DNA of 64,000 bases, taken from positions 248,001 to 312,000 of the forward strand of contig CAACVI010000023.1 in NCBI GenBank assembly GCA_900659855.1, read 5' to 3'. Source of the DNA: Candidatus Desulfarcum epimagneticum (lineage in GTDB: Bacteria > Desulfobacterota > Desulfobacteria > Desulfobacterales > CR-1). The notes beneath the pieces are model-generated. The model made no database searches, was not told the DNA's origin, and saw only the letters and a list, made by a program, of their open reading frames with translations. The translations under genes and the position numbers were made by a program. This document shows, one piece after another, positions 27,381-35,305 of the stretch. The stretch's first letter is position 1; the number at the start of each line of letters is the position of its first letter.

Positions 27381-27767
27381 CTAACCGAGCAGGGACTTGA
27401 CGCTCTCCAGGATGTCCTCGGCCGAGGCCGGTTTGGCGATGTAGTCGTCGGCCTCGGTGTTCATGCCGTCGGCGTGGGAATACCGGGTGGACGTGACATG
27501 GGACGCCACGGCCGTTAAAAGCACAATGGGGATATCGGCGTATTTTTCGTCGGCCTTCAGCTCCTTGCAGACCTCATAGCCGTCCTTTTCCGGCATCATC
27601 ACATCCAGAACAATGGCGTCCGGGGGGTTCGCCTTCACTTTTTCAAGGCCCTCCACGCCGTTGTAGGCCACATCCACCTCAAAGCCCTCTTTTTCCAGAT
27701 TGCCCTGGACAATCAAAGCGAAATCGGGCTCGTCATCCACTACCAGTATTCTTTTCTTGTCGCTCAT
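27381..27767 (-). CDS. Single-domain response regulator (CheY-like)
   Basis: 128 residues from ATG 27767, preceded by AAGGAGG at optimum distance. The receiver fold is complete: acidic pair DDEPDF, phospho-acceptor Asp in AIVLDVMMPEKDGYEV, Thr in VLLTAVAS, Lys in YIAKPAS. There is no output domain. An unusual insertion, TSTRYSHADGMNTEADD, follows the beta-4 Thr. It lies between the AroE-like gene and metF, with 109 bases to metF. The cognate kinase is not obvious; the PAS kinase at 35505 is a possible one. Confidence 0.9.
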   Translation of the reverse strand: MSDKKRILVVDDEPDFALIVQGNLEKEGFEVDVAYNGVEGLEKVKANPPDAIVLDVMMPEKDGYEVCKELKADEKYADIPIVLLTAVASHVTSTRYSHADGMNTEADDYIAKPASAEDILESVKSLLG

Positions 27768-27876
27768 GACAAACGCCTCCTTATACATTTAACATAACAG
27801 TTTTCAGCTTCCGTCTCCATATCATGATTGGCGGATATTTTCCCGAAAAATTTTCACGATGTCATCTATATGTCAT

Positions 27877-28809
27877 CTAATTGATTTCGGGTCTGGGGAA
27901 CAGCCCGGCCCTTTCCACGATCTCCGGGACCTTTTCCTCCCACTCGATGGCCATGATATGGAACCCGCTCACGCCCTCCATCTCCTTGATTCTTTCGATG
28001 GATTCCACGCAGATGTCGATGCCCTCCTGGGCCTGTTTCTCCTTGGGCGTGTCCGCGAGCCGTTTCACCAGATCGTCGGGCACATCCATGCCCGGCACCC
28101 GGTTTTTCATGTACCGGGCCATTCCGGCGGATTTCATGGGGGTCAGGCCGGCCATGATGAAGACCTTTTCATGAAGCCCCCGGTCCCGGGCCAGGGAGAG
28201 CCATTTCTCAAACTTGTCCAGGTTGTAGATGCACTGGGTCTGGATGAACTCCGCGCCGGCCGCTATCTTTTTGGCCAGCCGGGGGACCCGGATATCAAAG
28301 GGATCGGCGAAGGGGTTGGCGGCCGCGCCCACAAACATGCCCGGCGGGGTGTGGATGTCGTCGCCCCCCAGGAATTTCCCCTCGTCCCGCATGCGCCTGA
28401 CGGTCTGGATGAGCTGCATGGAGTCGAGATCGTGGACATTCTGGCCCTGGGCGCAGTCCCCGAAGCTCTGGTGGTCGCCGGACAGGCACAGGATATTGTG
28501 GATGCCGAAGGAGGCCGCGCCCAGGATGTCGCTTTGAAGCGCGATGCGGTTCCGGTCCCGGGTCACCATCTGCAAAACGGGCTCAAGGCCCATGAGCTTG
28601 AGGTGAACGCATGCCGCCAGGCTGCACAGGCGGGTCATGGAGGTCTGGTTGTCCGTGATGTTGATGGCGTCCACATGCTTTTGGATCAGCTTGGCCTTTT
28701 CGATGATCTCCTTTGGGTCGGAGCCCCTGGGGGGGCCGCATTCCGAGGTGACGGCCTGATGGCCCGCCGCGAGAATTTTTTCCAGTTTGCTCGGTGTCTT
28801 CATCTTCAT
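27877..28809 (-). CDS. metF: Methylenetetrahydrofolate reductase, MetF
   Basis: 310 residues, TIM barrel of the MTHFR family: VTSECGPPRGSD, HVDAINITDNQ, LEPVLQMVTRDRNRIALQSDILGA, LCLSGDH, FIQTQCIYNLDKFEKWL and FIMAGLTPMKSAGMARYM. The catalytic Glu is the E of SECGPPRG. It has no C-terminal regulatory domain. It is last of the metF-hdrA-mvhD-metV-metF operon and overlaps metV by four bases (ATGA), the arrangement of acetogen and sulfate-reducer MetVF complexes. It catalyses the methylene/methyl-tetrahydrofolate step of the C1 pathway. Confidence 0.92.
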   Translation of the reverse strand: MKMKTPSKLEKILAAGHQAVTSECGPPRGSDPKEIIEKAKLIQKHVDAINITDNQTSMTRLCSLAACVHLKLMGLEPVLQMVTRDRNRIALQSDILGAASFGIHNILCLSGDHQSFGDCAQGQNVHDLDSMQLIQTVRRMRDEGKFLGGDDIHTPPGMFVGAAANPFADPFDIRVPRLAKKIAAGAEFIQTQCIYNLDKFEKWLSLARDRGLHEKVFIMAGLTPMKSAGMARYMKNRVPGMDVPDDLVKRLADTPKEKQAQEGIDICVESIERIKEMEGVSGFHIMAIEWEEKVPEIVERAGLFPRPEIN

Positions 28810-29474
28810 TGCTGAACATCCTCCCTCGCCACTTTTCTGGGTCCCCCGGCCCGGTCCGTGGACCAGTCTTTCAACGGGGGCAGCTGTTCGTAATCATCGA
28901 GACGGCCCAGGGCTTTGAGGCGGTCCACAATGAGCTGCCAGGCGCAGTCCACATCCTTGCTGATCTCGCATTTTCCGTTTGTGGAGCCCCCGCACGGGCC
29001 GTTCATAATCCGTTTGGCGCATCTTGAAATCGGGCATATGCCCCCGGTGGAGGCCAGGATGCACTGGCCGCACGCCTGGCATCTTTCCGTCCAGAGGCCC
29101 CTTTCCTCGGCGGCGCCCAGAAAACAGGTGTTGACGCCGGGAAACACCGGGCTCTCCCCGTACTTGTCGGCGAAAAACTGCACGCCCACCCCGCAGGCCA
29201 GGGACACGACCCCGTCGTAGTCATCCACGATTCCCCGGACCTCCTCCAGGTATTCGTGGTCACACTGGCGCTCCAGGGTTTTTTCGTCGATTTTCACGTC
29301 TTTGCCCTGGTTTAGAAAATACATCCTCAACGCCGAGGCCAGCACCCCGACCTCTTTTTTTCCCCCGGCCTCGCAAACGGTGACGCACTCGTTGCAGCCC
29401 AGGATCAGGATGCGCTCCATGTCCTTGATTTCCTCTATGATTTCCTCAATGGGTTTTTTGTCCGCAACAATCAT
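28806..29474 (-). CDS. metV: MetV, zinc/Fe-S partner of MTHFR
   Basis: 222 residues. The N-terminal half has ILGCNECVTVCEAGGKKEV; the C-terminal half carries the dense Cys set CQACGQCILASTGGICPISRCAKRIMNGPCGGSTNGKCEI of the MTHFR C-terminal (PF12225) family. In characterised acetogens MetV partners MetF and supplies electrons from Fe-S clusters. The middle ACGVGVQFFADKYGESPVFPGVNTCFLG is conserved in the family. It lies 43 bases after mvhD and overlaps metF, fitting a stoichiometric MetVF complex. Confidence 0.9.
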   Translation of the reverse strand: MIVADKKPIEEIIEEIKDMERILILGCNECVTVCEAGGKKEVGVLASALRMYFLNQGKDVKIDEKTLERQCDHEYLEEVRGIVDDYDGVVSLACGVGVQFFADKYGESPVFPGVNTCFLGAAEERGLWTERCQACGQCILASTGGICPISRCAKRIMNGPCGGSTNGKCEISKDVDCAWQLIVDRLKALGRLDDYEQLPPLKDWSTDRAGGPRKVAREDVQQ

Positions 29475-29517: not shown

Positions 29518-29958
29518 CTACGCGGCCTTCTTCCCCCCGGCCCGTTTGAGTTTGATGGGATTGGGCCCCAGCTTTCGGATTCGCTCGCTCATCTCCCGGG
29601 CGATCTTGGCGAAAAGCGGTCCCTCGCTGGAGGACAGGTTGAACATCTCGATCCTGTCTTTTCCGACTCCCACGGCGTCCAGTATCTTTTGGGCCTGCTC
29701 CACCCGTTTTCTCGCCCTGAAATTACCGGTTTTGAAATGGCAGTCTCCCTCCATGCATCCCACCACATAAACGCCGTCCGCCCCTTTTTCAAAGGCCCTG
29801 AGCATATAGAGCACGTCCACCTTTCCGGTGCACGGGACCCGAACGATCTTGATGTCGGACGGGTATTGAAGCCTCATCGAACCTGCCAGGTCCGCGGCCG
29901 TGTAGCCTCAGAAGTTGCAGCAGAAAGAGATGATGATGGGCGTAAATTCCCGGCTCAT
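29518..29958 (-). CDS. mvhD: MvhD, hydrogenase/heterodisulfide-reductase Fe-S subunit, selenoprotein
   Basis: 146 residues if TGA at 29910-29908 is read as selenocysteine. The ATG at 29958 follows AAGGAGG. The first codons read SREFTPIIISFCCNF-U-GYTAADLAG, the MvhD motif in which U replaces the second Cys of CCNWC. After it come VPCTGKVDVLY and VGCMEGDCHFKTGN, the Fe-S ligands. Frame, ribosome site and family match are unbroken across TGA, so read-through is preferred over a short ORF starting at 29877. It lies between hdrA (18 bases upstream) and metV, and probably links HdrA to electron donors. Confidence 0.9.
29878..29894 (-). promoter_or_regulatory. Putative bacterial SECIS hairpin of mvhD
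   Basis: CGGACCU-GGC-AGGUUCG, seven pairs with one G-U, begins 13 bases after the UGA codon. Position fits the SelB-binding hairpin of bacterial selenoprotein mRNAs; the loop is short, so the call is moderate. Confidence 0.55.
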
Positions 29959-29976: not shown

Positions 29977-32900
29977 CTATAAAACGCCTTCCAAAAGGGC
30001 GTCCACTTTGGTTAAAATTTGATCGTCCTCATACCAGTTCAGCTCAATGGCCTTGGCCGGGCATTCCGAGGCGCACACGCCGCATCCCTGGCAAAGGGCC
30101 GGGTCAATTTCGCTGATTCCCCACTCGTTGATCCTGGGAACCCCGTAGGGGCAGGACCTCACGCAGATCAGGCACGACGCGCAGAAGTCCGCCTTGACCG
30201 AGGCGGTCACCGCCGAGAGCGTCAGATAATCCTGGGACAGGAAGGTGACGGCCCGGGACGCGGCGGCGTAGGCCTGGGAAATGGACTCGGAAATCAGTTT
30301 GGGGCTGTGGGCCGTTCCGCACACGAATATTCCCTCGGTGGGCATGTCCACCGGCCTCAATTTGACGTGCGCCTCCATGAAATAGTTTTCCTCGGTCCGG
30401 GACAGTTTCATGATGGAGGCCAGCTCCTCGGTGTCCTGGGCCTCCATGCCGGCGCTCAGCGCCAGAAGGTCGGCTTTGACCTTGAGCTTTTTGCCCAGGA
30501 CATGGTCTTTGAAGGTGACGAAAAGATCGCCGTCGGACACTTCCGCCACAGGGGGATCGTTTTTGTCGAAACGGAAAAACAAAACCCCCATCTCCCGCGC
30601 CTCTTTGTAGTAATCCTCCAGCAGGCCGTAGGTCCGGATGTCCCGGTAGAGCACGAACACCCGGGCGTCGGGGTTCAGCTCCTTGATGTGAATGGCGTTT
30701 TTCACGGACGTCTGGCAGCAGATCCGGGAGCAGTTGGGGTTGTCGTCGTTTCGGGACCCCACGCACTGGATCATGACCACGTCGCCCAAATCGTCGGTGC
30801 CGCTCTCCTCCAGCCGGGCCGCCAGCTCCACCTGGGTGGACACGCGATCGTCCTCGCCGTACAGGTGTTCCCTGGGAGAATGCTCCACGGCCCCGGTGGC
30901 GATGATGGCCACCCCGTGTTCGATTTTTCGCTCGTACATGCCCGGGCCCGCGATCACCTCGGTGGTGAAGTTGCCTTTGAAGCCGGAAAAACCCACCACC
31001 AGGGACCGGGTGAGAACCTGGATGTTTTCATGGGAGGAGGTCTTTTGGGCCAGGTCCTGGATATACGGGGCGATTTCCTCCCCCTCGATGGTGCGGGTCA
31101 GGCGGTGGGCCATGCCCCCCAGGACGTCTTCCTTTTCGATTAAAACCACCTTGTATCCCTGGTCCGCGAGCCCCAGGGAGGCGTTCATGCCGGCCACCCC
31201 GCCCCCGATGACCAAAGCGCGCTGGTTCACCGGTATCTTTTTCTCCGCCAGCGGATTCAGGGAGGCGGCCCGGGCCACGGCCATGCGCACCAGCTCCCTG
31301 GATTTCAGAGTGGCCAGCTCAGGCTCCTCGGAATGCACCCAGGAGTTCTGGTTGCGGATGTTGGCCATCTCAAACAGGTACTTGTTCAATCCGCACGCCT
31401 CCAGGGTGTCCATGAATATGCCCTCGTGGGTTTTCGGCGTGCAGGCCGCCACCACCACCCGGTTCAGCCGGTTCTCCCGGATGATCTCCTTCATGCTCTC
31501 CTGGGAGTCCTGGGAGCAGGTGAACAGGTTCTGGCACACGAAGGACACCCCCGGCAGGGTTTTGGAGTACTCTTCCAGATCGCTCACATCCACGGTTCCG
31601 GATATGTTGATGCCGCAGTTGCAGATGAACACGCCCACCCGGGGCTCCTGGTCCTCGACGCTGATCTCGTCGGGGGGCTCCACGCTTCGGGTCAAAGTCC
31701 CCCGGGCCGCGCCCAGGGATTTCCCGGCCAGACACGCCGCGGCGCTGGCCTCGGAAACCGAGCTGGGGATGTCCTTGGGGCCCTGGAAAACGCCGCTGAC
31801 GTAAACCCCGGGCCGGGAGGTCTCCATGGGGGAGAAGGGGTTCGTGGCCGCGAAATTGTAACGGTCCAGCTCAATTTCAAGGGTCTCGGCCAGCTTGCGG
31901 GTGGATTCCGTGATCTCAAGGCCCACGGAAAGGACGATTATGTCGAAGAACTCCTCTTTCAGCTCGCCGTCATCCCCCACATGGCGGACCCGGAGATTCT
32001 TCTCCTCCCCCACCTCGTCGATGGTGTGGATCCTGGCCTTGACGAATTTCACGCCGACGTTTTCCCTGGCCCGGTCGTAGTATTTTTCGTACTCTTTTCC
32101 AAAGGTGCGGATGTCCATGTTAAAAATCACGCACTCAAGGTCCTCTTCGGAGTGCTCTTTGGCGATCATGGCGTCCTTGATGGCGTACATGCAGCACACC
32201 GATGAGCAGTAGCCGTTTCCGCACCGGTTGAGGTCTCTGGACCCCACGCACTGGAGCCACGCGATTTTTTTCGGCTCCTTTCCGTCCGAGGGTTTCTGAA
32301 GATGCCCCATGGTGGGTCCGGACGCGCTCAGGATTCGCTCAAACTCCAGGCTGGTCAGGACATTGGGATTGCTTTTGTATTTGTAAAACAGCTCCAGGCC
32401 CGAGGGATCAAAGGGCCGGCTTCCCGGCGACAGGATCACGGACCCCACCTGAATGTCTTTTTCCACATACTCCTGGGAGTGGTCGACGGCGTCGGCCAGA
32501 CAGGCGTCCACACACTGGAGACATTCGCAGCAGTACCCGCAGTTGACGCACCGGGAGGCTTCGGCGCGGCCCTGCTCGTCGCTGTATCCCAGCTCCACCT
32601 CCCTGAAATTTCCCTTTCGCTCCTCAAGGGGCAGCTCCGGCATTCGGGCCCGGGCTTTGCGGGGCTCGCTTTCCGGAATGGGACGGTAAACCGGGTCCGT
32701 GATTTCAACGGGCTCTCTTCCCTCGGCCATATCCCGGCCGTCAAGGTATCTTTCGATGGATTCGGCGGCCTCCTTTCCGGCGGCCACGGCCCCGATGGCC
32801 ACCCAGGGGCCGGTCTGAACGTCGCCCCCGGCGAAAAGCCCCTCGCGTCCTGTGGCGTAAGTGACCGGGTCCGTCTCAATGGTGCCCCACCGGGTGAAAT

Positions 32901-34425
32901 TCAGGCCGGCCATGTCCTCCAGCCCGGAGAGATCGGGCATCTGGCCGATGGCCGGGATAAGCTGGTCGATCTCAATGTCGTATTCGCTTCCGGGAATGGG
33001 AATCGGTTTTCTCCTGCCCGATGAGTCGGGCTCTCCCAGCTCCATCCGGACGCACCGAAGGCCGTCCACCCGGCCGTCTCTCAGCAGGACTTCCTGGGGG
33101 GCCGCCAGGTAGGAGATGACCGTCCCCTCGTCCTCGGCGGCCCGGATCTCCTCCTCCCAGGCCGGCATTTCGTCCCGGGTGCGGCGGTAAATGAGGGTCA
33201 CTTCCCCGGCGCCGAGGCGGACGGCGCAGCGCGCCACGTCAATGGCCACGTTGCCGCCGCCGATGACCGCGATCTTTTTCCCGGTTTCGGCTTTTCCGGT
33301 CAGGTTGACCTCTCTTAAAAAGTCCACGCCCTGGCGGACCCCTTTGGCCCTTTCCCCCGGGATGCCCAGCTCAAAGCCCTTGTGGGCCCCGATGGCGATG
33401 TAAACGGCCTTGTGTCCCTGTTCGAAAAGACCCTCCACCGTGAGATCCGGCCCGATAGGGGAGTTGAGTTTGATCTCCACCCCCATGTTGGCCACGACCT
33501 CAATCTCCCGGTCCAGCACGTCCCGGGGCAGGCGGTGCTCGGGGATTCCGGTCCTGAGCATTCCCCCGGCCTTGGGCAGGGCCTCGAAGATGGTGGACTT
33601 GATCCCTTTTCGGGCGAGTTGATACGCGGCGGAAAGACCGGCGGGCCCGGAGCCGATGATGGCGACCTTTTCGTCCCGCCCGGGCATGCGCTCTACTTTC
33701 ACTTCCCGGGGATCGAACCGGTCCGCCGCCAGCCGTTTTAAGTCCCGGATGGCCACAGGCTCGTCCACGTCGCATCTCCGGCACGCGTTTTCGCACCCGT
33801 GGGGGCAGATTCTGCCCAGAACGCCCGGAAGGGGCAGGTCTTCCATGATGATGTCCAGGCATTTTTCATACCGGCCCTCTTTGGCCATCTGCACGTAGCC
33901 CTGGACGTTGAGTCCGGCCGGACACGACATTCGGCACGGCGCCGGGTCCTCCTTGCGGATGGCGAAAGCGCCGGGAATGGCCTGGGCGTACTTTTTGTAG
34001 GCGGCTTTGTTCGTGGAAAGCCCCTCGTCGTATTCGTTTCCCAATGGAACGGGGCAGACTTTCTCGCACTCGCCGCAGCTGGTGCACTTGGACACGTCGA
34101 TGAACCGGGGTTCCTGGCCGATTTTCGCCGTAAAGTTCCCCGGGGTTCCCTTCAGATCAATCAGTTGGGAATTGGTAAGAAGCTCAATGTTTAAATGCCG
34201 GCCGACCTCGACCAGTTTGGGAGAGATAATTCACATGGCGCAGTCGTTGGTGGGAAAGGTCTTGTCCAGCTGGGACATGAGACCGCCGATGGCCGACGAA
34301 TTTTCCACCAGATGCACATAGTATCCCGAATTGGCCAGATCCAGGGCCGACTGCATGCCCGCGATTCCCCCGCCGAGCACCATGACGGAGCCCACGGGAG
34401 TCGCGCCGCTTGTCTTTTTTTCCAT
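29977..34425 (-). CDS. hdrA: HdrA fusion: HdrA-GltD/NfnB-like-HdrA, selenoprotein
   Basis: 1482 residues when TGA at 34233-34231 is read as selenocysteine (residue 65). Residues 1-110 are an HdrA N-terminus (GGGIAG at 18-23, then [19 protein letters not shown]). A 4Fe-4S motif [13 protein letters not shown] follows at about 114. From about 160 to 630 lies a glutamate-synthase-small-subunit/NfnB-like unit ([27 protein letters not shown] for [18 protein letters not shown] for NAD(P)H), then [13 protein letters not shown]. The HdrA fold resumes ([15 protein letters not shown]) and a second HdrA copy fills roughly 940-1482, with its own FAD motif and two C-terminal 4Fe-4S sites ([26 protein letters not shown]). 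It probably bifurcates or confurcates electrons. HdrB/HdrC are not encoded next to it. Confidence 0.9.
34198..34215 (-). promoter_or_regulatory. Putative bacterial SECIS hairpin of hdrA
   Basis: CUGGUC-GAGGUC-GGCCGG, six pairs including two G-U, starts 15 bases after the UGA. The GAGGUC loop contains the GGU element found in the E. coli fdhF SECIS loop (AGGUCU). Confidence 0.7.
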
Positions 34426-34435
34426 TTTGTCATCC

Positions 34436-35305
34436 TTATATTTTTTTGAGTATGTCGGGCAGTTTGTCCTCCCATCCCATGGTGGAGATCAGAACCCCGG
34501 CAAACCCCTGCTTCCGGATTTCCCGGGCCGTTTCCGCCGCGATTTCCACGCATTCCCGGGTTTTGTCTCTGGATTTCCGGATTCGGTCGATGGTGGCGTC
34601 GGGAATGTCGATGCCCGCGACGTTCCGGGCGATGTAACGGGCCATTCCAAGGGATTTCAAAAGCAGAACCGTGGGCGTGACACGGATGTCTTTCATATCG
34701 ATCTTTTTCGCGAAGGACTCGATGAGCGCCGGGTCGAAAATGGGAGGGGTGACGAAGAACCGGGCGCCGGCCTCGATTTTTTCCTTCATGTCCGCGATTC
34801 CCATTTCCGCGGATTTCCCGCCGACGCCGGGATCGGCCGAGGCGCCGATGAGAAAATCGGGCGCGCCCATAAGCTCCACGCCGCTCATGTCCGCTCCGGC
34901 CGACAGCCCGGCCGCGGCCCGGATGAGATCCAGGGTGTCGATGTCATGCGCCGGCCGGGCCTGGTGATGGTCGCCGAAGGTGGTTTCCTCGCCCTTGACG
35001 GCCATGATATTGGGTATTTCGCAGGCCCCGGCGGCCAGAAGATCCGCCTGGAGGGCCAGCCGGTTTCGATCCCGGCAGTTTGCCTGCATCACCGTTTCCA
35101 TGCCCTTTTGCTGAAGGATGACGGCCGCCCCGAGGGAACTCATGCGCATCTCGGCGTTGGTCATTTCAGGCGTCATGAAGGCGGTCACCTCTCCTTTGAC
35201 CCTCATGGCGCCGGATACCATGGCGGACACGTCGACTCCCTTGGGGGGCTGGATCTCCGCGAGAACGGCAAACTCTCCTGAATCGAATTTGCGCTTTAGC
35301 CTCAT
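34436..35305 (-). CDS. metF: Second methylenetetrahydrofolate reductase homologue
   Basis: 289 residues, MTHFR TIM barrel: [16 protein letters not shown] (with the catalytic-site Glu), [78 protein letters not shown]. It is first in the operon, ten bases before hdrA, with CGGAGG six bases before its ATG. It is divergent from the last-gene MetF (27877), and 'PP' replaces the 'GPP' core of that protein. Whether it has a different pterin or cofactor preference, or acts as an assembly subunit of the HdrA complex, is unknown. Confidence 0.85.

Follow-up and report, generated by a model that had tools for sequence, protein, structure and literature searches.

The window analysed here is a 64,000-nucleotide stretch of the Candidatus Desulfarcum epimagneticum genome, and within it the UGA at 29910 in mvhD is almost certainly read as selenocysteine, a reading that rests on comparative sequence evidence and would yield a full-length MvhD carrying Sec17. 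The adjoining gene, hdrL, encodes a second selenoprotein. Both selenoproteins are real, widespread in relatives, and of families already described; what is added here is the adjacent Sec-containing HdrL, the frozen SECIS cores, the tight link between the double-Sec pair and MetVF, and a Sec-free sister operon in the same genome. The features of mvhD are as follows:

29518 to 29958, minus strand: mvhD, 146 aa with predicted Sec17; Pfam FlpD/MvhD delta subunit (PF02662, 4e-49)
29908 to 29910, minus strand: predicted UGA selenocysteine codon of mvhD; of 143 distinct relatives, 101 have TGA and 42 have TGC/TGT in this column
29878 to 29894, minus strand: predicted bacterial SECIS hairpin of mvhD; 7-bp stem and GGC loop, 13 nt after the UGA, identified by conservation of its core

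The mvhD frame starts at ATG 29958 behind AAAGGAGG, crosses the TGA at 29910-29908, and stops at 29518, with the product MSREFTPIIISFCCNF-U-GYTAADLAG... The letters thus bear out what the sequence-only reading had described, namely a strong ribosome site and start at 29958, a TGA at 29910, and the peptide SFCCNF-U-GYTAADLAG. It had also predicted that a start at 29877 would remove the Fe-S motif and that automated annotation would truncate the gene; a mechanical ORF caller indeed begins mvhD only at 29877, and the C14/U17 motif is lost. In a Pfam search the product covers positions 1-123 of the 123 in the PF02662 profile (4.3e-49), and its fold is already fixed because it has relatives in the PDB at 1e-36 to 1e-45.

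To follow the UGA among relatives, we drew MvhD sequences from 40 genomes (the source genome and 39 of the same order) and from 72 further loci, mostly in named Desulfobacterales or deltaproteobacterial genomes, which after filtering left 143 distinct sequences. In the order-level search, the 20 top matches each have a single in-frame TGA, as do nearly all of the best matches across the 40 genomes (exactly one each), and relatives up to 81% identical have the UGA at the same place. The proposed check for U/C exchange at this column gave a clear outcome: column 17 is TGA in 101 sequences, TGC or TGT in 42, and nothing else in the filtered set, with one Ser appearing in a looser, pre-filter set. 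Since the best 20 matches share a single in-frame TGA and the column admits only TGA, TGC, or TGT in 143 sequences, the UGA is not there by chance. Positions 14, 17, 43, 68, and 73 are invariant as Cys or Sec in all 143. Exchange also occurs at position 68 (15 U, 128 C), and no sequence among the 143 has Sec at both 17 and 68. A Sec/Cys tree places 3 changes at the first site and 6 at the second; few of its forks are resolved, and it served solely to show clustering. Both exchange positions are X in PDB chain 9sfi_K, which presumably denotes Sec.

These data bear directly on the most mundane explanation, that the UGA truly terminates translation or arose by sequencing error, mvhD being a pseudogene or starting at 29877. 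The start chosen by the standard ORF caller fits that explanation, but 101 distinct relatives share this UGA at the identical codon and conserve the coding frame upstream of it, the hairpin behind it is frozen in Sec forms only, and the genome has the full Sec machinery. The stop or sequencing-error explanation is refuted by the conserved UGA/Cys column, and we accord it practically no weight.

Exactly 13 bases separate the UGA from the hairpin, CGGACCT-GGC-AGGTTCG (29894-29878), the distance noted in the sequence-only reading. Of the 101 Sec forms, 96 share its 17-base core GCGGACCTGGCAGGTTC unchanged, even at third codon positions; none of the 42 Cys forms has it. Across the 101 Sec forms, the entropy at the fourfold degenerate third bases of codons 22, 24, 25, and 26 is 0, 0, 0, and 0.08 bits, against a mean of 1.73 bits (minimum 1.31) at 43 other fourfold columns of the same genes, and the same four codons vary in the 42 Cys forms (1.0-1.9 bits). 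Because other silent sites in these genes are near saturation, common descent alone is insufficient to account for the frozen hairpin. Further, the pattern of UGA plus core occurs exactly twice in the source genome, at mvhD and at a paralogue on contig C50, and the reversed control gave 0 occurrences. A codon-resampling null for the mvhD hairpin alone reached only 0.011. For the 39-nt regions, minimum-energy folds agree only in a 6-bp core, so the argument for a SECIS is built on synonymous-site conservation and not on fold energy. Rfam gave 0 matches on the 64,000-nt window, and its SECIS_1 model gave 0 in the source genome, but likewise 0 in every control genome, so that this model carries no information here. 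On these silent-site patterns, the hairpin behind the mvhD UGA is a SECIS element under selection.

The search for selA, selB, selC, and selD that had been suggested found all four: SelA (4e-172), SelB (1e-111), SelD (3e-110), and a tRNA-Sec with anticodon UCA (76.1 bits). In this setting, recoding of the mvhD UGA as some other residue, by a change to a Trp or Cys code or by suppression, has nothing in its favor beyond the open frame. The SECIS is frozen at synonymous sites, a dedicated tRNA-Sec is present together with SelA, SelB, and SelD, and the codon exchanges with Cys only, never with Trp; we regard such recoding as highly improbable, if marginally less so than a true stop. The Cys/UGA-only column, the Sec machinery, and a SECIS frozen in Sec forms only uphold the original claim that MvhD is a selenoprotein. 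SelB and tRNA-Sec would decode its UGA as directed by the SECIS hairpin 13 nt downstream. The selenoproteome of the source genome is sizeable. More HdrA and MvhD paralogues with one in-frame TGA each lie on contig C50 (8612-12813 and 11608-15873) and contig C1 (449473-453006 and 366960-367385), among them MvhD whose Sec occupies the other exchange site, position 68. Scanning the complete window for in-frame UGA genes returned mvhD and hdrL, plus four further frames. The SelD gene itself (contig C12, 51993-52922) contains one in-frame TGA, and its product is probably a Sec-containing selenophosphate synthetase.

The sequence-only reading, though right that mvhD encodes a selenoprotein, was incomplete, as it missed the adjacent HdrA-like selenoprotein gene:

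29977 to 34425, minus strand: hdrL, HdrA-type, 1482 aa with predicted Sec65 and an NfnB/GltD-like insert at about aa 160-640
34231 to 34233, minus strand: predicted Sec codon (UGA) of hdrL, in the motif CAM-U; corresponds to Cys197 of methanogen HdrA
34198 to 34215, minus strand: predicted bacterial SECIS hairpin of hdrL, CTGGTCGAGGTCGGCCGG, identified by conservation of the 18-mer

Upstream, the hdrL frame continues past the TGA at 34233-34231 and opens with an ATG at 34425, which follows the preceding gene by 10 bases. GTG 34095, listed as the start, is an artefact of the UGA, and standard ORF calling thereby drops the first 110 codons (34096-34425), Sec65 included. Residue 65 falls on residue 197 (Cys) of HdrA chain 5odc_A in a gap-free alignment, most long hdrL orthologues have TGA at this position, and chain 9sfi_A has X there; 9sfi is a solved HdrA-MvhD complex, probably with multiple selenocysteines. 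The hairpin 18-mer is identical in 62 of 62 UGA forms and in 0 of 7 Cys forms, and the codon-resampling null is 0.0006. Pfam places Fer4_20 and Pyr_redox_2 at aa 162-550, and NfnA/GltD chains in the PDB match aa 161-571, so that the protein has both the HdrA core and the NfnB/GltD-like NAD(P)H-binding part that define HdrL. Its first HdrA unit has the Cys197-equivalent residue and is without the N-terminal domain; the second has that domain (aa 926-1099, against 2-175 of 5odc) and is without a Cys at the 197 position. Cys197 is described as an inter-subunit ligand, which one HdrA donates to the N-terminal Fe-S cluster of its partner (PMC9012536). The two halves of HdrL are complementary, with the residue in the first and the N-terminal domain in the second, and therefore should pair within one chain, where Sec65 should be the cross-domain ligand of the HdrA N-terminal cluster. 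Sec17 and Sec65 would both take the places of cysteines in Fe-S-bearing motifs, where selenium most likely tunes the cluster potential or shields the cluster from oxidation.

The remaining members of the cluster are:

34436 to 35305, minus strand: second MetF-like gene, directly upstream of hdrL (PF02219, 3e-26)
28806 to 29474, minus strand: metV, methylene-tetrahydrofolate (THF) reductase C-terminal domain protein (PF12225, 8e-38)
27877 to 28809, minus strand: metF, methylene-THF reductase (PF02219, 4e-38), with a 4-base overlap with metV
27381 to 27788, minus strand: response-regulator receiver protein (PF00072), at the downstream end of the cluster

The order is thus metF-like, hdrL, mvhD, metV, metF, and response regulator; all six are encoded on the minus strand, and no gap between them exceeds about 90 bases. 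Some relatives, and likewise the Sec-free operon described below, have the second MetF-like gene at this position. Inspection of the listed frames and Pfam found no mvhA, mvhG, hdrB, or hdrC in the cluster. The name MvhD therefore holds for the family (PF02662) but not for membership in an Mvh [NiFe] hydrogenase, as the subunits MvhA and MvhG do not adjoin it and its neighbors are HdrL and MetV/MetF. Among relatives, Sec-mvhD is followed by metV in 82 of the 101 distinct cases, and many of the others are cut by the fetched flank. Where a UGA-MvhD/MetV locus also shows an HdrA upstream (51 loci), the HdrA site is UGA in 50 and Cys in one. By these gene orders the double-Sec HdrL-MvhD pair is tightly linked to MetVF. 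Cultured relatives that have this operon include Desulfospira joergensenii, Desulfocicer vacuolatum, and Desulfamplus.

Family membership and gene order suggest that the products probably form an NAD(P)H-linked methylene-THF reductase in which MvhD bridges HdrL and MetVF. The [2Fe-2S] cluster of MvhD would connect the NAD(P)H-oxidising HdrL flavoprotein, with its Sec65, to the MetVF methylene-THF reductase. We favor this complex because of the analogy to HdrABC-MvhD-MetVF, a published complex in Moorella (PMC5736913, PMC6085437), and the connector role of MvhD (PMC12350162). The oxidative direction would be expected in a sulfate reducer that fully oxidises acetyl-CoA, as discussed for Desulfobacterium autotrophicum. 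A bifurcating scheme would also need a second (high-potential) branch, for which the cluster, lacking HdrB and HdrC, offers no candidate. A different assignment, unlikely though to be taken seriously, accepts selenocysteine in both proteins and gives MvhD and HdrL a soluble acceptor, an Hdr-type sulfur or thiol one, in place of MetVF, the neighborhood reflecting a shared pathway instead of one complex. That hdrBC does not adjoin the genes and that another HdrL locus of D. autotrophicum adjoins dsrABC (PMC2702500) would suit such an acceptor; the recurrence of metV behind Sec-mvhD at the frequency given above speaks against it.

Selenocysteine in MvhD/FrhD and in HdrA is tabulated in reviews (PMC13188914, PMC9312934). 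In D. autotrophicum HRM2, for instance, the 2009 annotation assigned selenocysteine to hdrL1, hdrL3, mvhD1, mvhD2, mvhD3, and mvhD5, and a long HdrL with an NADH-binding part is followed by mvhD, as in the window; the portions of that paper available to us do not state that an HdrL-MvhD pair adjoins metVF and give no analysis of SECIS conservation (PMC2702500). Likewise, hdrA and mvhD are two of five UGA/SECIS genes in Desulfococcus multivorans, where annotation split each into two locus tags, but unlike in the window no linkage to metVF was described (PMC5109826). Methanococcus maripaludis has Sec in the same two subunits, VhuD and HdrA(U), but within an archaeal Sec system and with Vhu hydrogenase and HdrBC as partners, not MetVF. 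Moorella thermoacetica, as far as the papers that cite Mock et al. 2014 relate it (PMC6085437, PMC5736913), has an HdrABC-MvhD-MetVF complex that shares the HdrA-MvhD-MetV-MetF module, as well as a fused two-domain HdrA with complementary loss of Cys197 and of the N-terminal domain (PMC9012536). Unlike in Moorella, the window cluster lacks hdrBC, and it has an NfnB-like insert in HdrL and selenocysteine at two sites.

Standard ORF calling mis-starts both genes, at the cost of 110 residues including Sec65 in HdrL and of the Fe-S motif in MvhD. The frozen 17- and 18-base SECIS cores offer simple, specific DNA signatures for re-annotation across Desulfobacterales. Sec/Cys exchange at MvhD 17 or 68 and at the HdrA Cys197 position also provides a natural experiment on the placement of selenium at Fe-S sites of Hdr-type complexes.

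The same genome holds a second operon of identical order (metF-like, hdrA, mvhD, metV, metF, and response regulator; locus L051:1989-9316, contig C34, about 282.0-289.3 kb), with Cys at all three Sec positions, that is, the HdrA 197 position and both MvhD sites. Its HdrA, of 1014 aa, has no Fer4_20 match, and thus the NAD(P)H insert is absent; this operon is a parallel system and not simply a selenium-free copy. Methanococcus is known to switch between Sec and Cys isoforms in a selenium-dependent manner, with the Cys isoforms of M. maripaludis induced upon selenium depletion (PMC11097638). Tentatively, and with less confidence than in the bridged complex itself, we suggest that the hdrBC-free, double-Sec HdrL-MvhD-MetVF conserved in Desulfobacterales could be a distinct NAD(P)H-linked bifurcating or confurcating methylene-THF reductase, and that its Sec-free, insert-less companion could serve other selenium or redox conditions. 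A stand-alone response-regulator receiver protein ends both operons (27381-27788 on the minus strand of the window, and L051:1989-2537).
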